Shown: positions 1 through 14,917, counted from the first letter of the stretch. The stretch: DNA of 64,000 nucleotides from Neisseria sp. MVDL19-042950 (GCF_030504625.1 NZ_JAUKWH010000001.1:124001-188000), one strand, 5' to 3'. Notes: generated by a model from the sequence alone, not told the origin. Numbers and translations are program-made.

Positions 1-849
1 ATTATGCCGGGGCACGGCGTGATGGTACACGGCTTGCTGCCCGATGCGCCTGCTTGCGAAGTAGCCAGCATGTCCGGCGTGTGCGTGGCGGGCATGGCGG
101 CGATGAAACATGCGTTTAACGCCGTGCGCACGGGTGAACACCGACATGCCGTCGCTGCCGCTTCAGAAGCCGCTTCCGCCGTGATGCGCGGCGAAAACTT
201 TCGCAGCGAAGCCTCGCAAAAACGGCTTGAAAACGCCCGCCCCGAAATCGGTTTTGAAAAAGACTTTTTACGCTGGATGCTTTCGGACGGCGCAGGTGCG
301 GTTTATTTGAGCAACCGCCCGAATTCAGACGGCCTCAGCTTTAAAATCCATTGGATAGACCTGCTTTCCTATGCCAACGAAATGCCCGTGTGCATGTATG
401 CGGGTGCCGAAGTGAAAGACGGCGGGTTTGTCAGTTGGAAAAGCGTCGATGCCGATTACCGCGAGAAAAACAGCCTGATGGCCATCAAACAGGATGTCAA
501 ACTGCTCAACGAAAATATTGTCCGCTACACCGTAGAAAAGCCTTTGCAGCGTATCAAGCAGAAATACAATTTGCAGGCCGATGAAATCGATTGGTTCCTG
601 CCGCATTATTCGTCGGGCTTTTTCCGCGACCGTGTAGCCGAAGGCTTGGTCAATGCCGGTTTTCCGATTCCGCAGGAAAAATGGTTTACCAACCTGTACG
701 AAAAAGGCAACACCGGTTCCGCCTCGATTTACATCATCCTTGAAGAATTCATACGCACTTTCCCGCTGCGAAAGGGTCAGAAAATATTGTGCTATATCCC
801 CGAAAGCGGGCGGTTTTCCACCTGTTTCATGTTGCTGGAGGCGGTATGA
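1..849 (+). CDS. 3-oxoacyl-ACP synthase III-like protein (5' truncated by window)
   Basis: KAS III (FabH-like) enzyme that would catalyse a decarboxylative or initiating acyl condensation, probably on the carrier protein encoded downstream. The reading frame is open through base 1 and the ATG at base 4 lies inside the thiolase fold, so the true start is upstream of the window. Within the visible part the likely nucleophile is in SGVCVAG (about residue 27), followed by His in LPHYSSG (about 201) and Asn in KGNTGSAS (about 233). This is the Cys-His-Asn triad of KAS III, which argues for an active enzyme. The stop overlaps the next ATG by 3 bases (ATGA), implying translational coupling in an operon. 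The exact substrate cannot be read; DarB-like synthases are alternatives to FabH. Confidence 0.85.
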   Translation: MMPGHGVMVHGLLPDAPACEVASMSGVCVAGMAAMKHAFNAVRTGEHRHAVAAASEAASAVMRGENFRSEASQKRLENARPEIGFEKDFLRWMLSDGAGAVYLSNRPNSDGLSFKIHWIDLLSYANEMPVCMYAGAEVKDGGFVSWKSVDADYREKNSLMAIKQDVKLLNENIVRYTVEKPLQRIKQKYNLQADEIDWFLPHYSSGFFRDRVAEGLVNAGFPIPQEKWFTNLYEKGNTGSASIYIILEEFIRTFPLRKGQKILCYIPESGRFSTCFMLLEAV

Positions 850-1256
850 AAGTAGACGATATTCCGCAAGACGAGAGCAAAACCTATCACGGCCATCAGA
901 AAATCATCTACGGCACGCGCGACGGCCATTACGAAGCCGCCACCAGCAGCGGCTGGCAGGACGAAGCATTCGCCACTGAGCAGGCCGTAGCGGAATTGGA
1001 CGAATTGACCGAACAGGCGTTGCAGGCCGTCTTAAAAGGCGAACGTTCGCCACTTTATTATTATATGTACCGCTACCGCCACGACGAAAGCAGCCTCGCC
1101 CAATCCGCAGGCTTGTGGCGTTGGCAGATAAGGCGGCATTTCCGGCCGGAAGTGTTTGCCAAACTCAACAACAAAACTTTAAGCAAATACGCCCAAGCCT
1201 TGCAGCTTGATGTTTCCACCTTGCGCCAGCCGCTTTCAGACGGCCTCGAACCATGA
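846..1256 (+). CDS. small hypothetical protein with HTH-like C-terminus
   Basis: 136-residue protein of unknown function. The track's longer ORF begins at 789, but the ATG at 846 overlaps the upstream stop as ATGA and is the more natural start. The N-terminal half is acidic and hydrophilic. The C-terminal half (about residues 85-130) reads like a Cro/CI-type helix-turn-helix, with SLAQSAGLWRWQIRRHF followed by LSKYAQALQLDVSTL, which resembles a recognition helix and the helix after it. The gene ends in a DUS copy (encoding LSDGL) and overlaps the next gene by ATGA. A regulator or accessory protein of the biosynthetic cluster is possible; no enzymatic motif is visible. Confidence 0.7.
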   Translation: MKVDDIPQDESKTYHGHQKIIYGTRDGHYEAATSSGWQDEAFATEQAVAELDELTEQALQAVLKGERSPLYYYMYRYRHDESSLAQSAGLWRWQIRRHFRPEVFAKLNNKTLSKYAQALQLDVSTLRQPLSDGLEP

Positions 1257-2266
1257 TCGAATTCCACCACCAGCACACGGCCCACTGCGAAAGCGGTGTG
1301 ATGTCTACCTTACTCAAGCACCACGGTTACGATTTAAACGAAGCCATGATTTTCGGATTGGCTTCCGCCCTCACGTTTGTTTATCTGCCCGTGGTCAAAT
1401 TGGCGGGCATGCCGCTGATTTCCTACCGCATGCCGCCGAAAGGCATCATCAAAAACACTTGTAAAAATTTGGGCATACGGTTGAATATGCGCAAGTTTTC
1501 ATCAGCCGAACAGGGGCGGAAGGCGCTGGACGAGGCTCTTGCCGCAGGCAAACTCGTCGGCTTGCAGACTTCCGTGTTTTGGTTGCCGTATTTCCCCGAA
1601 GAGATGCGTTTTCATTTCAATGCCCACAATCTGCTGGTGTACGACAAGGAAGACGGCGATTATTTAATCAGCGACCCTGTGTTTGAAACCGTGCAACGTT
1701 GCGCCGCCGAAGATTTGCAGCGAGCGCGTTTTGCCAAAGGCGCATTGGCCGCCAAAGGCTTGATGTACACCATCGATGGTTCGAGGCCGTCTGAAAACTG
1801 GTCTGCCGAGCTGCCGCGGTTGATTCGCAAGGCAGTTGGCAAAAACGCCAAACAGATGCTTGCGCCGGTGTTTTTCGTTGGTGTGCGCGGCATCCGTACG
1901 GTGGCCAAACAAATTGAAAAACTTGCCGGCAGCGGCAAATCGGAAAAATACAAAAAACTCTATCTCGGCCATATCGTGCGCATGCAGGAAGAAATCGGCA
2001 CCGGCGGCGCAGGTTTCCGCTACCTTTATGCTTATTTTCTCGAGCAAGCCGCCGACATCTGCGGCGAACCTGCTTTTCAGACGGCCTCGCAACGCATGAC
2101 GGCCATTGGAGACCAATGGCGCAAATTCGCAAGTTTGTGTGTGAAGCAATGCAAAAGGCCGTCTGAAAACGGCTATCGGGAAACGGCTGACTTTTTGCGG
2201 AAAATTGCTGACGCGGAAGAAAAATTGTGGTTGGATTTGAAAAATACCCGAAATCGAATCAAATAA
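1253..2266 (+). CDS. BtrH N-terminal-domain / DUF4872-type protein
   Basis: 337-residue protein with a C39-peptidase-like N-terminal fold. Cys12 (HCESG), His125 (NAHNLLVYD) and Asp141 (ISDP) are spaced like the Cys-His-Asp triad of BtrH-type proteins. BtrH of butirosin biosynthesis moves an acyl group from an acyl carrier protein to an amine acceptor. By analogy (inference), this protein could release the product of the neighbouring ketosynthases and ACP by acyl transfer; proteolysis of a leader peptide is a weaker alternative because no precursor peptide is visible. The C-terminal half is helical and DUF4872-like. Two DUS copies are embedded in the coding region (RPSEN). It overlaps the upstream gene by ATGA. 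Confidence 0.75.
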   Translation: MIEFHHQHTAHCESGVMSTLLKHHGYDLNEAMIFGLASALTFVYLPVVKLAGMPLISYRMPPKGIIKNTCKNLGIRLNMRKFSSAEQGRKALDEALAAGKLVGLQTSVFWLPYFPEEMRFHFNAHNLLVYDKEDGDYLISDPVFETVQRCAAEDLQRARFAKGALAAKGLMYTIDGSRPSENWSAELPRLIRKAVGKNAKQMLAPVFFVGVRGIRTVAKQIEKLAGSGKSEKYKKLYLGHIVRMQEEIGTGGAGFRYLYAYFLEQAADICGEPAFQTASQRMTAIGDQWRKFASLCVKQCKRPSENGYRETADFLRKIADAEEKLWLDLKNTRNRIK

Positions 2267-2290
2267 AATAATAACCGGAAACGAATATAC

Positions 2291-2305
2291 AAAAAAAAAA
2301 AAAAA
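2291..2305 (+). repeat. homopolymeric A tract (15 A)
   Basis: An uninterrupted run of 15 adenines lies 41 bases before the GTG start of the AT-rich gene at 2347. Tracts of this length slip during replication, and in Neisseria such tracts in promoter regions can vary expression. No clear -35/-10 pair could be assigned around it. Confidence 0.9.
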
Positions 2306-2346
2306 TAGAAATTACTGTCTTGTAATCAGCTTAGGAGAGGATTGTT

Positions 2347-3300
2347 GTGAGAGAGCCGGAATTATTCTTAACTAGGGTTTATAAGCCTTTAGATTCATTG
2401 GATTTTAATGGAGAAAAATTAAAGATTGATGAAAAAGAAATCAAATTCCTTCATCATTCTATTTTGAATAACAGTGAGTTTACAAAGGATGCGCGGGGAA
2501 ATTGGAAATTAATATTTTTTAAAGACGATGATTTATACCGGCAAGAATTTTATATTAAATTTAATGAATTAGATAAAGACGAAGATATTGCTTTTTGCCA
2601 AGATGACAGTTCGAGAATATTGAAAAACACGGACTTGAATTTCAAAAAATATGATGAAATCACACGATTATGTTTTGTTTATGATGGCCAAATACAAGGC
2701 GATTCGAGGAAAGATCATCAAATAAATGATGAATTTCTAAAATATATAGAACATTTATCGTTGATTGTCCGTGAATCAAAAGCGGTAAAGTTCGATGATT
2801 TCTATGAAACGAGATCACATTATGGCCATTTTGATGGAAGAGGATTGTCGTTTTTGGCCAAATTACCAAAGCAAAGAGCTTATTTGGAACGCTATATTTT
2901 ACTGGTAGCGCTGGCATACGCTTATTTAGGCGTATTGGAAAAATTCGGTAACGAGTTGGCCAAGTTGGGAAAACCGGAAGATATTTCCCGATTACATTTT
3001 TTATATGAAAAAATTTCTTATTTCTATGTGAAGTTCTTTTTTTGCCAGCCGGTACTCAGTAAAAATTCCGCCTCGGTTGAAGCGTGGAACCGTATCAGCG
3101 GCATTTTAAAAATTAGCGAATTAAAGAGTGAATTGGATCAAAAGGTTTCAATGATCCACTATATTTTAAATCTGCAATCCGAAAAGCAAGAGAGAAAACA
3201 AAAAGAAATAGATAAGAAAAAACAGGATAAAGTAAATATTACATTTGTGATTTTAGGGGTCGCCATCAGTTGCCTTCAATTGATCGGGCTATTCAAATAA
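2347..3300 (+). CDS. AT-rich hypothetical protein with C-terminal membrane anchor
   Basis: 317 residues, family not recognised. The GTG start at 2347 is preceded by a strong Shine-Dalgarno (AGGAGAGG). The first ~100 residues are charged and soluble and the middle is helical. Residues about 255-295 form a very charged, probably coiled-coil stretch (QSEKQERKQKEIDKKK) leading into a single hydrophobic segment (FVILGVAISCLQLIGLF) at the extreme C-terminus, so the protein is likely tail-anchored. Base composition is far more AT-rich than the flanking genes and it contains no DUS, both signs of recent acquisition. It interrupts the biosynthetic operon between the BtrH-like gene and the ABC transporter. 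Confidence 0.75.
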   Translation: MREPELFLTRVYKPLDSLDFNGEKLKIDEKEIKFLHHSILNNSEFTKDARGNWKLIFFKDDDLYRQEFYIKFNELDKDEDIAFCQDDSSRILKNTDLNFKKYDEITRLCFVYDGQIQGDSRKDHQINDEFLKYIEHLSLIVRESKAVKFDDFYETRSHYGHFDGRGLSFLAKLPKQRAYLERYILLVALAYAYLGVLEKFGNELAKLGKPEDISRLHFLYEKISYFYVKFFFCQPVLSKNSASVEAWNRISGILKISELKSELDQKVSMIHYILNLQSEKQERKQKEIDKKKQDKVNITFVILGVAISCLQLIGLFK

Positions 3301-3311
3301 TATAAATTTTT

Positions 3312-4214
3312 ATGATAGAAATAAAAAACCTTTCCCATCAATATCCAAACGCGCAAGTGCCGGCTTTGCGCGGTGTTTCGCTGGAAATCGGCGAGGGTGA
3401 AACTTTGGGTTTGCTGGGGCCGAACGGGGCGGGGAAAACCACGTTGATGTCGCTTCTGGCGGGTTTGCAGCCGGGGCAGTCGGGGCAGATTACTTTCGAC
3501 GGCGTGCCGTTCGCGCGCCTGAGTAAAAAACAGCGGCACCAAATTTCCCTTGTGCCGCAAGATTTTGCCTTTTATCCCTTACTGAGCGTTTGGGACAATC
3601 TCAAATTTTTTGCCGCGCTTTATGACGTGAAAGACAAAGCGCATTTGCAGCAGTTACTTGAAGAAACAGGCTTGGAAGCGCACCGCAACAAGCTGGCGAA
3701 GCATCTTTCAGGCGGCCTCAAACGCCGCTTGAATTTCGCCGTCGGTTTAATCAACCGGCCACGCCTGATTTTTCTGGATGAAATCACCGTCGGCATCGAC
3801 CCCGAATCGCGCCGGTTTATTCTGGAAAGCGTGGCGGAGCTGGGCAGGAGGGGCGTAACCGTTATTTATACGTCGCATTACCTGCAAGAAATTGAATTGT
3901 TGTGTAAAAATCTGGTATTGCTGAATCACGGCCGAATGATTTATCAAGGCGGCGTGCAGGATATTTTGCAGCAAAACGGCCGATCTGGTTTAAGCGTGCA
4001 AACGCAGCCGCCGCTGAGCGATGAGCATGTGGCCGTCTTAAACGGCAAACGGGAAGCGAACGGAGCCGTGCGGATTGAAACGCAAACTGCCGAGCCGGTG
4101 TGGGTGTTTTTGCAGGAAAAAGGTTATGCGGTAACTGCCTGCCAATTCGGTTTTGCATCGTTGGAATCGTTTTATCTCGATTTCTTGCGCAATCAGGCGG
4201 AGGTAACATGCTGA
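3312..4214 (+). CDS. ABC transporter ATP-binding protein
   Basis: 300-residue ATPase of an ABC-2 type exporter. Walker A GPNGAGKTT (about residues 36-44), the ABC signature LSGGLKRR (132-139) and Walker B LIFLDE (152-157) are intact, with the switch His in YTSHYLQE. The C-terminal ~80 residues form the variable domain typical of drug, antibiotic or polysaccharide exporters of this class. It overlaps the permease gene by 7 bases, so the two are co-translated. Placed between the BtrH-like protein and the carrier protein, it most likely powers export of the cluster's product, or of a lipid carrying it, across the inner membrane. Confidence 0.9.
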   Translation: MIEIKNLSHQYPNAQVPALRGVSLEIGEGETLGLLGPNGAGKTTLMSLLAGLQPGQSGQITFDGVPFARLSKKQRHQISLVPQDFAFYPLLSVWDNLKFFAALYDVKDKAHLQQLLEETGLEAHRNKLAKHLSGGLKRRLNFAVGLINRPRLIFLDEITVGIDPESRRFILESVAELGRRGVTVIYTSHYLQEIELLCKNLVLLNHGRMIYQGGVQDILQQNGRSGLSVQTQPPLSDEHVAVLNGKREANGAVRIETQTAEPVWVFLQEKGYAVTACQFGFASLESFYLDFLRNQAEVTC

Positions 4215-5452
4215 TTGCTTCTATTGTTAAAGAAATCAAGCTGTTGAGTAGAGATTTGCACGGCGTGGCGGTGTTGTTTGTGATGCCGGTGCTGTTTATG
4301 CTGATTATGTCGGCGGCGTTGAGCAATGAAGACGAGTTGAACCACCGCAGCAATATCGTGTTTATCGGCGAAAAAGACAGCAAACTGAATCAGGATTTCG
4401 TCAAAGCCCTGCAAGCCGAAAATCTGGCGGTGCAACAGGCCGCACCGTCGGAGCTTGCCGACTTTCAGACGGCCTTACAGCAAGGCAGGTTTGAATTGCT
4501 GGTGGTCAACCCCAACGGCAGCAAAACCGCGCTGACTGATGAAAAACCGCTGCAATTGTGGTTGAACCCGAGCGTAGACCGCTCGTGGCTGCTGGGTATG
4601 AAAGGCGTTTTGCAGAAACATTACACCGAAGAGCGGTTGGCGCATTTCCTCGACGGCAACCACGTTACGCTTGAGAACAACAAACGCGCGCCGATTAAAA
4701 AAATCCAAAACAAAGTAAACGAAGATTTGGATAAAAAATTCGCCGAAATCAACGACTATCTGGACAAGGATTTGTGGGAAGAAGTGTATCTCAACCGACA
4801 GGGCACACAGGTAACCAAGCCCAACTCGGTGCAGCACAGCGTGCCCGCATGGCTGATTTTCGGCATGTTTTTTATTATGATACCGCTTTCCAACGTCATG
4901 GCGATGGAACGGCAAACCAACACCATCACCCGTTTGCGCATGGCGCGTGCTTCGGCATGGAAGCTGATTGTGTCGAAGCTGGTGCCTTATTTCGTCATCA
5001 ACCAGTTGCAGTTTGCCGGCATGGTGGCACTCGGTTATTTCGTGCTGCCGCATCTGAACATGCCCGCATTCGAGCTTTCAGGCGGCCTGCTGTCTTATGC
5101 GGCGCTGTCTTCGGCGGTGAGTTTGGCCGCATTAGGCTACGGTTTGCTGGTAAGCGTGATTGCGCGCACCACCGAGCACGCCGTGGTGCTGGGCGGCGGC
5201 GGCATCATCATTATGGCGGCGTTGGGCGGCATTATGGTGCCGGTGTATGTGATGCCCGAAGTTATGCAGACGGTTTCACAGTTTTCGCCGATGGGCTGGG
5301 CGCTTACGGCATTTCAGAATCTGCTGCTGAATCATTATTCGCTGATGCAGATTCACACACAGCTTTTGTTGCTGGCAGGGTTCGGCGTAGCCGCATTAAC
5401 GGTTGCCGCGCTTTTATACCGCCATCAATTAAGAACACAGGTAAGATTTTAA
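4208..5452 (+). CDS. ABC-2 type permease
   Basis: 414-residue integral membrane partner of the upstream ATPase. The ATG at 4208 (in GAGGTAACATG) is preferred to the track's start at 4100, which lies inside the ATPase gene. One N-terminal membrane segment (about 20-40) is followed by a long hydrophilic, presumably periplasmic domain (about 45-220). A bundle of five to six membrane segments follows, including the FGMFFIMIPLSNVMAMERQ region typical of ABC2_membrane proteins. The stop abuts the ATG of the carrier-protein gene. Likely function is export of the cluster product; the substrate is unknown. Confidence 0.87.
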   Translation: MLIASIVKEIKLLSRDLHGVAVLFVMPVLFMLIMSAALSNEDELNHRSNIVFIGEKDSKLNQDFVKALQAENLAVQQAAPSELADFQTALQQGRFELLVVNPNGSKTALTDEKPLQLWLNPSVDRSWLLGMKGVLQKHYTEERLAHFLDGNHVTLENNKRAPIKKIQNKVNEDLDKKFAEINDYLDKDLWEEVYLNRQGTQVTKPNSVQHSVPAWLIFGMFFIMIPLSNVMAMERQTNTITRLRMARASAWKLIVSKLVPYFVINQLQFAGMVALGYFVLPHLNMPAFELSGGLLSYAALSSAVSLAALGYGLLVSVIARTTEHAVVLGGGGIIIMAALGGIMVPVYVMPEVMQTVSQFSPMGWALTAFQNLLLNHYSLMQIHTQLLLLAGFGVAALTVAALLYRHQLRTQVRF

Positions 5453-5740
5453 ATGGGCAATACGGTTAATACAGATTCCCCCGCGCTCGAGCGGGAATTG
5501 AAACTACTCATCGCGCGGGAGAGCGAAAGGGACGACCTCGATATCGACGCTTGGCAGGACGACGAACCGCTGTTCGGCCGCAAAAGCAGCATCGGTTTGG
5601 ATTCACTCGACGCGCTGCAAATCAGCGTTGCTTTGCAGGCCCGCTACGGCGTGCGTTTGAACGGCGACCGCATGGTGCGCAAACACATGATGACCGTGCG
5701 CGATCTGGCCGCATTTATCCGTGCCGGGCAAACGGAGTAG
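5453..5740 (+). CDS. acyl carrier protein (phosphopantetheine-binding)
   Basis: 95-residue carrier protein. The motif GLDSLDAL places the phosphopantetheine attachment Ser at residue 51, followed by the usual helix II and the hydrophobic LAAFI end. It differs from the housekeeping AcpP in having an Arg/Lys-rich C-terminal half (RYGVRLNGDRMVRKHMM). It begins immediately after the permease stop and lies 3 bases before the KAS gene. It should carry the growing acyl chain for the ketosynthases of this cluster and be the donor for the BtrH-like protein (inference). No dedicated phosphopantetheinyl transferase is in view. Confidence 0.9.
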   Translation: MGNTVNTDSPALERELKLLIARESERDDLDIDAWQDDEPLFGRKSSIGLDSLDALQISVALQARYGVRLNGDRMVRKHMMTVRDLAAFIRAGQTE

Positions 5741-5743
5741 CAT

Positions 5744-6838
5744 ATGGCCGTGTATGTTACCGGAGCCAGTTTCGTATGCGCACAGGGCGAGAACGAAGCG
5801 GCTTTTCCGCCGAACGGCAGTATCAAGCCGCCCGCCGTGCAGGTTTCGCAAATGCTCGGCCAAACAACCGAATGGCCTTATTTCAAGGCTTTCGGTCAGG
5901 ATTTGCTGACCTTGCCCGATTTGTTTGCGTTGCTTGAAAAACACATGCTTCAGACGGCCTCGGCAGCAGGTTGGGAGGAAGAAGAGCTCGGCTGCGTGCC
6001 GATTTTAATCGGGTCGACCGCTTATGTGGTGTCCGATCAGGAAAGCCGTTTTGGTAGCGGGCAGGATGTTTATGCCTATCCGCCGAACGAAATCAGCGAG
6101 CATCTGCGCCGCCGTTGGAACAATCCCCATGTTTACAGCTTTGCCACCTCTTGCACCTCCTCGGCGCAAGCCATAGGTTACGGCTGTAAAATGATTGAAA
6201 ACGGTTTTGCCGACAAAGCATTGGTTATCGGCTTCGAGATGTTCAACCGCTTTACGTTCGAGCATTTCCAAGCCATGCAGCTTTTGTCTTCCGGGGCGCA
6301 CAGCCTGCCGTTGGCCGATCCGCAAGGCATTATTCTGGGGGAAGGTTTGGCCTGCGTTGCGTTATCCGCACAGCCGGGCGGCAATAGGCATTATGCCATC
6401 AGCGGCATCAGCAGCCTTACCGACCACGAAAGCCTCACCAACAGCAGCGATGATGCTTTAAGGCGTTTGATTGCCGGTATTCTGAAGCAGGCGGGCGTAG
6501 ATGCCGCCCAGATTCAAACCGTTAAAGTGCATGCCACGGGCGGAATCGGCGACGAAGCCGAAGAAGCCGTGCTGCGCGAAATGCTTCCGCACAGTTACCG
6601 CCTGATTCTCAAACCTTATACCGGCCACCCGCTCGGCGCGGCGGGCGCACTTGAAACCGCCCTGATGTTGCGCTTTATCCAAAACGGCCGTTTCCCCGCA
6701 CTGCCGGATGCGGCGGATTACACCGATTTGCCGACCGCACACGGCCAACCCGTTTCAGACGGCCTGTGCCTGCATTATTTCCTCGGTTTCGGTGGCAGCA
6801 ATATCGGCTGGGTGTCGGAATGGTGTGAGGCCGTCTGA
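5744..6838 (+). CDS. beta-ketoacyl-ACP synthase (KAS I/II-like)
   Basis: 364-residue thiolase-fold condensing enzyme. Cys137 in FATSCTSS is the nucleophile; His in KVHATGG and His in TGHPLGAAG complete the Cys-His-His triad of FabB/FabF-type enzymes. At 364 residues it is shorter than FabF (about 412), so some loops are reduced. It would extend the acyl chain carried on the adjacent ACP. The end of the gene is formed by a DUS (GAGGCCGTCTGA supplies the stop). With no ketoreductase or dehydratase in the visible cluster, either a poly-beta-keto product, a single condensation, or borrowing of fatty-acid enzymes is implied. Confidence 0.88.
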   Translation: MAVYVTGASFVCAQGENEAAFPPNGSIKPPAVQVSQMLGQTTEWPYFKAFGQDLLTLPDLFALLEKHMLQTASAAGWEEEELGCVPILIGSTAYVVSDQESRFGSGQDVYAYPPNEISEHLRRRWNNPHVYSFATSCTSSAQAIGYGCKMIENGFADKALVIGFEMFNRFTFEHFQAMQLLSSGAHSLPLADPQGIILGEGLACVALSAQPGGNRHYAISGISSLTDHESLTNSSDDALRRLIAGILKQAGVDAAQIQTVKVHATGGIGDEAEEAVLREMLPHSYRLILKPYTGHPLGAAGALETALMLRFIQNGRFPALPDAADYTDLPTAHGQPVSDGLCLHYFLGFGGSNIGWVSEWCEAV

Positions 6839-6851
6839 AAAGGAATATGCT

Positions 6852-7553
6852 ATGAAACACACTTTCTGGATTCAGGCACAGCACAGTTATACCGCTACCG
6901 AAACCGACGGCATCGATCTGCGCCGCTACCTCAAGCAGCACGGCAGGGAAGCGCGCCGCATGAGCCGTTTCAGCCAACTGGTTTCGGCGGGCACCCTACC
7001 GTTTAATCCGTCGGCGGAAAGCAATATTTATCTGGCTTCACCGTTCAGCTCTCCGAGCAAATTCACCGATACTTTCAGCCGGTTGCTGAATGACAATCTG
7101 CCCAGCCCGCTGGATTTTATGGCTGCTTTAAACAATGCCGCCACGTTTCAGACGGCCCAGACGCTGGGTTGCGACGGCCCGTCGGTGTTTCTGCTGGTCA
7201 GCCCGCACACGTATTGGCAACCGTTATGGCTGGCGGTGAACGACTTGCTGCTGCATCCGCGGCAAACCGCATTGGTCGGATGGGCGTACGAGCGCATAAG
7301 GGCGGATGAAACGCAGCCGGAAGGCAGCTTTTGGTGGCAGATCGGCACCACGGCGGGCAGCAATCCTTCGGCTGAGATTATTGTCGATATGCAATCGAAG
7401 CATTTCGAGGAAGATGCTGCCGAATCGGCGGAAAAAAGCGGATTTTTACAGCCTGTTTCGCAAGTGTTCGATGTGCTTGCCCGTAAAGGGCAAGTTATTT
7501 TGCCGTGCGCGGGTTATCCGCAAAACGTGCGGATAACGGTTAAAACCGTTTAA
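6852..7553 (+). CDS. ketosynthase-like protein (Ketoacyl-synt_2 type)
   Basis: 233-residue KS-fold protein. The ATG at 6852 is chosen over the track's start at 6708, because the extra N-terminus there only encodes part of the upstream gene and a DUS. The sequence TLGCDGPSVFLL aligns with the N-terminal half of the beta-ketoacyl synthase fold seen in aryl-polyene-type clusters (Ketoacyl-synt_2). The protein ends before a C-terminal KS half, so it is unlikely to be a complete condensing enzyme alone. A chain-length-factor or structural-partner role with the KAS at 5744 is the likeliest reading. It is the last gene before a DUS-pair terminator. Confidence 0.78.
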   Translation: MKHTFWIQAQHSYTATETDGIDLRRYLKQHGREARRMSRFSQLVSAGTLPFNPSAESNIYLASPFSSPSKFTDTFSRLLNDNLPSPLDFMAALNNAATFQTAQTLGCDGPSVFLLVSPHTYWQPLWLAVNDLLLHPRQTALVGWAYERIRADETQPEGSFWWQIGTTAGSNPSAEIIVDMQSKHFEEDAAESAEKSGFLQPVSQVFDVLARKGQVILPCAGYPQNVRITVKTV

Positions 7554-7559
7554 ATCGGG

Positions 7560-7595
7560 AGGCCGTCTGAAAAATGATTTTCAGACGGCCTTTTT
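7560..7595 (+). terminator. DUS-pair terminator closing the biosynthetic cluster
   Basis: AGGCCGTCTGAAAA and TTTTCAGACGGCCT are inverted with a 5-base loop and followed by a T run, 7 bases after the KS-like gene. Confidence 0.85.
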
Positions 7596-14026: not shown

Positions 14027-14917
14027 TCAGGCGGGGCGGGTTTTGGGCTTCGGCGAGCCCAGATAAATCGCCGACAGGGTTAATGCCGCGCCGCACCATT
14101 GCAATGCGCTAATCGGTTTGTGCAGCCAAAAGTAGTCGATAACCAAAGTGGCCACCGGTTCGCTGAGCAGCAGCAAGCCGGTGAGGGAAAGGGAAAGCAG
14201 CGGAATCGCATAAGTAATCAGCCCCCATGCAAAGCATTGCATCACCACGCCGTATATCAGAATCAGGCTGATGTCGCGCAGGGTTTCGGGGTAGAACTTG
14301 TCGGCATCCCACATCAATGCGGGCAGAAAAACAGCCGCCATGCCGCCGATGCTGAGTAGGAACATTATCGGAAACAACGCCGCTTTTTCTTCCTGATGGG
14401 TTTTGCGGATAAATACCATTGATAACGCCAGCATCGCCCCCGACACGATACCGCTCACCAAGCCCCAAACGGCGTGGCTGTTGCGGCCGAGCTCGGGGCT
14501 GCCTATCAGGGCGACACCGATAACGGCCAGAAGCAGGCTGAATATTTGCAGCCTGCCCAAACGTTCGCCGAAAAAGAAAAAGCCGATGGCGGAAAGAAAA
14601 AAAATCTGCAAGCTGTTGAGCAGGGTGGAAATGCCGGGGCCGACGGCACGGATGCTTTCATGCCACAAGCCAAGATCGAAGCCGAGAAATGCGCCGGAAA
14701 GCAGCGCGAAGCAGGCGGTGCGTTTCTTTTTAGGGAACGCTTGTCCGAAAAAACGGGTGAGCAGCCCAAAAATAACCGCCGCAACCGCCAGTCGCCAAAA
14801 TGCAATCGCATACGCGCCGACCGGCACGAATTTAACAATCAGGCTGCCCAATCCGAAGATGACGCAGCCGGCCACCAAGGTCGGAGCGGCGTATTGTTTG
14901 GCAGATTGGATGTGCAT
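14027..14917 (-). CDS. EamA/DMT-family permease
   Basis: 296 residues from the ATG at 14917; the track's start at 15043 adds DUS-derived residues. There are ten hydrophobic segments in two EamA repeats. The first contains LWHESIRAVGPGISTLLNSLQIFFLSAIGFFFFGERL and the second LLLLSEPVATLVIDYFWLHKPI, both with the family's conserved Glu after the export-helix pair. Substrate unknown. Its place between ribB-like and ribH genes makes a flavin, riboflavin precursor or related metabolite conceivable, but this is inference from position only. Confidence 0.85.
   Translation of the reverse strand: MHIQSAKQYAAPTLVAGCVIFGLGSLIVKFVPVGAYAIAFWRLAVAAVIFGLLTRFFGQAFPKKKRTACFALLSGAFLGFDLGLWHESIRAVGPGISTLLNSLQIFFLSAIGFFFFGERLGRLQIFSLLLAVIGVALIGSPELGRNSHAVWGLVSGIVSGAMLALSMVFIRKTHQEEKAALFPIMFLLSIGGMAAVFLPALMWDADKFYPETLRDISLILIYGVVMQCFAWGLITYAIPLLSLSLTGLLLLSEPVATLVIDYFWLHKPISALQWCGAALTLSAIYLGSPKPKTRPA

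Follow-up and report, generated by a model that had tools for sequence, protein, structure and literature searches.

Which product is made by the first genes of a 64,000-nucleotide stretch of DNA from Neisseria sp. MVDL19-042950, and do these genes form a new pathway? The stretch, referred to as the window, covers positions 124001-188000 of contig C1 (NZ_JAUKWH010000001.1) in a genome of 2.44 Mb, and an original prediction made from its sequence described a compact cluster dependent on an acyl carrier protein (ACP) that was not recognised as any characterised pathway. The locus is almost certainly the Neisseria version of the 2,5-dialkylresorcinol (DAR) operon, darABDEFICJK. Taken as a whole, it is best explained as an operon for the resorcinol moiety of a yellow, flexirubin/arcuflavin-like polyene-DAR pigment (probability about 0.8). 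The pathway is already known, and what is new here is the Neisseria copy of the dar operon. Gene letters follow the paper that named them (PMC3949708); the letters of NCBIfam differ, so that DarE corresponds to NCBIfam DarH and DarD to the DarG family.

The dar operon in Neisseria

In Azoarcus sp. BH72, the genes azo0293-azo0283 comprise darA, darB, darD (conserved hypothetical), darE (BtrH-like), darF (ATPase of an ATP-binding cassette (ABC) transporter), a Phd/PilT-like pair, darI (permease), darC (ACP), darJ (ketosynthase, KS) and darK, and arcuflavin, the pigment of this strain, is an aryl-polyene/DAR hybrid (PMC3949708). The operon of the Neisseria strain reads darA-B-D-E-[orfX]-F-I-C-J-K. 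Core genes and their order are shared and the polyene genes are unlinked in both organisms (PMC3949708), whereas the Phd/PilT-type pair lies between darF and darI in Azoarcus and orfX lies between darE and darF in the window; this comparison was made by published annotation and not by Azoarcus sequence. Because the gene order of Azoarcus BH72 had been published together with its product (PMC3949708), the claim that the combination was uncharacterised fails.

The original prediction had proposed a stand-alone cluster, in which the BtrH-like protein would take a short beta-keto acyl group off the ACP and pass it to an unknown acceptor. This would agree with the reductive enzymes not being seen inside the window, but the locus matches the published DAR locus gene for gene (PMC3949708), DarE passes an equivalog model, and the reductive enzymes are encoded elsewhere in the genome, in an unlinked aryl-polyene cluster that would supply them as in Azoarcus. 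An uncharacterised stand-alone pathway was rejected on the published synteny with Azoarcus BH72 and is considered highly improbable.

The window starts within darB, and an upstream stretch (L004, C1:108001-126000) was joined to it for reading darA and darB completely. As had been expected, the cluster continues upstream, with darA and the rest of darB at L004:14683-16849. The gene darA occupies L004:14683-15696, its true start being probably at 14755, and the full darB of 383 codons lies at L004:15698-16849, of which the 3' part is found at positions 1-849 of the window. From darB onwards all genes are on the plus strand. The conserved protein DarD (846-1256) reached 178.4 bits with the NCBIfam 'DarG family' model (cutoff 70) and is followed by darE (1253-2266) for the BtrH-like acyltransferase, orfX (2347-3300), darF (3312-4214) for the ABC transporter ATP-binding subunit (Pfam ABC_tran, with its position conserved in related loci), darI (4208-5452) for an ABC-2 permease (Pfam ABC2_membrane_3), darC (5453-5740) for the ACP (Pfam PP-binding, with Ser51 in an intact GLDSL motif), darJ (5744-6838) for a KS similar to ketoacyl-ACP synthase (KAS) I/II (Pfam ketoacyl-synt N and C domains) and darK (6852-7553) for a KS-fold partner resembling a chain-length factor, without the KS cysteine motif. 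An inverted pair of neisserial DNA uptake sequences (DUS) followed by a T-run at 7562-7594 on the plus strand, found by inspection of the sequence and a DUS scan, is the probable operon terminator; 95 DUS copies are present within the window. ATGA overlaps join darB to darD and darD to darE, the start of darI overlaps the stop of darF, and the remaining junctions abut except around orfX.

Thus, the KAS III, the BtrH-like protein, both transporter subunits, the ACP, the KAS I/II-like enzyme and its KS-fold partner had all been assigned correctly, as had the tight gene junctions outside the surroundings of orfX, and the gene content supports ACP-dependent biosynthesis with a linked ABC transporter. 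The original gene list was incomplete, as darD and orfX had been left out.

DarB is the KAS III-like candidate DAR cyclase. The full-length protein scored 581.8 bits (cutoff 450) with the NCBIfam StlD/DarB family, and its closest solved relative is the ketosynthase StlD (PDB 5gk0, phmmer E 1.5e-126). In agreement with the predicted integrity of the catalytic residues, the Cys-His-Asn motifs of DarB (SGVC, LPHYSS and KGNTG) and the Cys-His-His motifs of DarJ (TSCTSS, KVHATG and TGHPLG) are intact. DarK had no match in Pfam and was related by hhalign to the ApeC-type chain-length-factor family (probability 93.8, E 1.7e-7). As a divergent relative of ApeC with a KS fold, DarK may pair with DarJ, the two forming a chain-length factor and its KS. 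In relatives, DarA and DarB have been shown by others to make DAR.

The same genes were found in 80 named loci of Neisseriaceae, Pasteurellaceae, Orbaceae, Pseudomonas and Pseudoalteromonas, with darA-B-D-E contiguous in 75 of them and the position of darA next to darB kept in nearly all relatives. The gene darE is carried by 24 of the 46 sampled Neisseria species.

Two of the records call for separate comment. In L041 (CABDVE010000001.1, titled Pseudomonas stutzeri NCTC11607) the dar genes are Pasteurellaceae-like, and the record is probably mislabelled. Bibersteinia trehalosi (L047, NZ_SMAM01000004.1) holds a dar remnant, in which darA and darB were not found, a stop lies within the darE frame, a DRT8-type reverse transcriptase follows darE and the polyene genes are retained.

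A proposed pathway to a polyene-resorcinol pigment

In the proposed pathway, DarB would join and cyclise two fatty-acid-type intermediates bound to ACP or coenzyme A, and DarA would aromatise the product to 2,5-dialkylresorcinol. DarC, the dedicated ACP, would work with DarJ and DarK to provide or lengthen an ACP-bound acyl chain; the exact identities of the chains are inferred. In DarE, Cys12, activated by His125 and Asp141, would accept the acyl group of a carrier protein, and the enzyme would pass this group to a phenolic hydroxyl of DAR. The transferred group would most likely be an aryl-polyene carboxylate from an unlinked second cluster, and the resulting ester would be of the kind present in flexirubin and suggested for arcuflavin. 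Transport of the product, or of an intermediate, over the inner membrane would probably fall to DarF and DarI, and the strain would be expected to hold a flexirubin/arcuflavin-like pigment in its cell envelope.

A second cluster suited to this role is present on contig C12 of the same genome, where aryl-polyene genes are split into two pieces about 19 kb apart. The first piece (L115:7843-16449) encodes an ApeC-like KS domain, a lysophospholipid acyltransferase, two ACPs and an IspA/COG4648-like membrane protein, followed by an AMP-ligase fused to an ApeI dehydratase, a glycosyltransferase, an LpxL-like acyltransferase, a thioesterase, a nitroreductase-family protein and LolA. The second piece (L116:15293-19563) encodes two KS, a ketoreductase, an ApeP dehydratase and a small lipoprotein. 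The prediction that ketoreductase, dehydratase, acyltransferase and thioesterase are not visible therefore stands for the window and falls for the genome, as all four are encoded on C12. The polyene exporter is uncertain, with MMPL-type open reading frames (ORFs) located elsewhere in the genome. The C12 genes correspond to ApeC, D, E/F, G, H/I, J, K, L, O, P, Q and R of the aryl polyene cluster of E. coli CFT073, which has no described dar genes (PMC8253772), whereas the polyene genes of the present genome are split over two sites. Within the first piece, a 162-codon ORF (L115:10603-11091) has a GC content at third codon positions of 0.21, and the polyene cluster therefore appears to carry an insertion too.

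The flexirubin clusters of Chitinophaga pinensis and Flavobacterium johnsoniae share darA/darB and aryl-polyene genes with the present strain, and their product is a polyene-DAR ester; they differ in that the genes of Flavobacterium form one large cluster, that synthesis starts from tyrosine via an ammonia-lyase and that another ester-forming enzyme is proposed (PMC3992019). A start of this type was rejected for the present strain, as no match to the aromatic/tyrosine ammonia-lyase family PF00221 was found in its genome. Because UbiC, which provides 4-hydroxybenzoate, is encoded in the genome and the aromatic ammonia-lyase was not found, 4-hydroxybenzoate is the likely polyene starter. This route has been described for E. 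coli (PMC8253772).

The joining step was attributed to DarE. With the NCBIfam equivalog 'BtrH-related acyltransferase DarH' (DarH_acyl) the protein scored 501 bits (cutoff 300), and Pfam recognised BtrH_N and DUF4872. All 17 homologues compared share Cys12, His125 and Asp141 without variation. A PDB sequence search with the DarE profile gave only designed coiled coils, and the AlphaFold model (predicted local distance difference test score, pLDDT, 84) matched AziU3/U2, CcbD and CtaG over the whole length (E 4e-11 to 4e-8). The triad corresponds to C11, H128 and D144 of CtaG, with a spacing of 16 residues between His and Asp in both proteins. DarE thus shares a predicted whole-length fold and a Cys-His-Asp triad with BtrH, CcbD, CtaG and AziU3 at 12-16% identity. 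CcbD and CtaG are condensing enzymes that depend on a carrier protein; according to the titles of the structure entries, CcbD was solved with the peptidyl carrier protein of CcbZ and CtaG with p-hydroxybenzoate. The earlier suggestion that the BtrH-like protein transfers acyl groups between a carrier protein and an acceptor is likely to be correct. Characterised members of this type mostly form amides, whereas DarE is proposed to form an ester. It is rather likely that DarE esterifies DAR with an aryl polyene.

Another possibility is that the operon makes a free dialkylresorcinol, serving as a signal or antioxidant, and that DarE adds another acyl group or acts as a thioesterase or hydrolase, with no coupling to the polyene. 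The folds of the DarE family indeed include amide-forming and peptide-acting enzymes, the naming paper termed the protein a BtrH-like peptidase (PMC3949708), and this genome has its dar operon and its polyene genes at unlinked sites. However, the two loci are 8-15 kb apart in several other Neisseria, and in the Neisseria species sampled darE is nearly always accompanied by polyene genes. The markers used for the polyene cluster were ApeP (PF22817) and PRK09184, which replaced DUF3261 (PF11659), as the latter had no match in any Neisseria and a control was likewise silent, making this negative result uninformative. ApeP was above cut-off in 23 of 24 darE-positive and 13 of 22 darE-negative Neisseria species (Fisher p 0.004; species are not independent). 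Azoarcus, moreover, showed no free DAR although its genes could make one (PMC3949708). A free resorcinol as the end product is therefore regarded as unlikely.

Some observations weigh against a polyene-DAR pigment made by DarB and joined by DarE. DarB missed the strict NCBIfam model resorcinol_DarB (465.8 bits, cutoff 550), so that the details of its product could be different. The assignment of DarA depends only on its position, its conservation and a weak match to flavodoxin. Among the papers found, none reports DAR or a hybrid pigment in Neisseria, and the authors of the flexirubin study proposed the ligase-like FlxW for joining polyene and DAR (PMC3992019).

Accessory genes at the junctions flanking darE

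The gene orfX, of 317 codons on the plus strand, differs from the rest of the operon, with a GC content of 32.9% compared with 52-59% in its neighbours. As it is oriented with the operon and separated from darE by 80 bp and from darF by 11 bp, it might be taken as a conserved functional member of the pathway. However, no match to orfX was found in the 80 related dar loci, and the darE|darF junction is occupied by unrelated genes in other species, so that a role in the pathway appears very unlikely. Besides its own genome, 2 of 83 genomes of the family and 1 of 369 genomes of the class carry distant relatives, and none were found in plasmids or viral contigs. A weak match to the PADLOC CorA-like model (E 5.6e-5) was obtained, and the protein has a long helix at its C-terminus, the end of which is a membrane segment; its structure model (pLDDT 47) was too low in confidence for structure search. 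We regard orfX as inserted accessory cargo outside the pathway.

To place this insertion, the junctions of the operon were compared in loci L192-L226 and L121-L137. The Pasteurellaceae set consisted of all 35 darE-positive species among 140, with one genome per species, and a junction was scored as occupied if it contained an extra ORF of at least 100 codons. In this family the junctions flanking darE were occupied in 41 of 67 cases (darD|darE 22/33, darE|darF 19/34), compared with 11 of 184 for the six other common internal dar junctions (A|B 4/31, B|D 0/32, F|I 5/32, I|C 2/30, C|J 0/30, J|K 0/29). The corresponding Fisher p of about 2e-19 is only descriptive, because the species are related. 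The extra ORFs on the two sides of darE followed the direction of the operon in 51 of 52 cases and belonged to 12 cargo families at darD|darE and 9 at darE|darF.

In Neisseria, the darE|darF junction was occupied in 9 of 18 loci, eight with one to three copies of SH3-domain proteins and one with orfX. These SH3 proteins (L027, L028, L125-L128, L131 and L132) have about 250 codons, an apparent signal peptide and a bacterial SH3-like domain, and occur as tandem copies.

Several cargo proteins matched models of defence systems. A strong match was RhuM/PDC-S05, a family present at 11 darD|darE sites, and further ones were Shedu SduA (E 4e-125), a DRT8-type reverse transcriptase (3e-130), HEC-01A/B (3e-150 and 4e-77) and PDC-M50A (E 2e-45). 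Thoeris ThsB (E 3e-81) was located after darE in L038 and is outside the counted junctions, because this locus lies at a contig end. At darA|darB, a PtuA-like ATPase (E 3e-37) adjoins a PIN-domain protein. The remaining cargo was transposase-like, lipoprotein or without assignment. Strong PADLOC matches were obtained for 8 of 20 scanned cargo proteins, whereas among 100 control ORFs flanking the dar block in the same Pasteurellaceae loci only two PADLOC families reached E≤1e-10, each with a single ORF; this contrast is indicative only, because the 20 proteins were chosen by hand.

The pattern resembles the neisserial minimal mobile element, which in a passage of PMC3898611 citing Saunders and Snyder (2002) refers to different whole-gene cassettes between two conserved genes. 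Different cassettes between the same conserved pair are the shared feature, whereas here the pair lies inside one biosynthetic operon and the pattern extends across species of two families, rather than being strain-level variation within a species. We consider it an even question whether the darE-flanking junctions of Pasteurellaceae and the darE|darF junction of Neisseria are a shared landing site, at which accessory genes, many of them anti-phage, would be repeatedly exchanged and carried in sense within the pigment operon, probably by natural transformation. In that case orfX would be one of these cargo genes and might encode an undescribed membrane effector.

As a separate observation, a Cas9-like ORF of 981 codons was identified by eye from its translation on the minus strand of the upstream stretch (L004:1-2943, C1:108001-110943), some 12 kb upstream of the dar genes, and it runs beyond the edge of this stretch.

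Biological significance

With this analysis, a known pathway is assigned to roughly half of the sampled Neisseria species, and DarE becomes a concrete candidate for the joining of polyene and resorcinol. Pigments of this type may protect host-associated bacteria from oxidative stress. The operon itself is ordinary; the insertion hot spot is the less ordinary result and worth following. It indicates that a biosynthetic operon can carry defence genes unrelated to it, and a comparison of darE junctions between species offers a simple way of searching for new ones.

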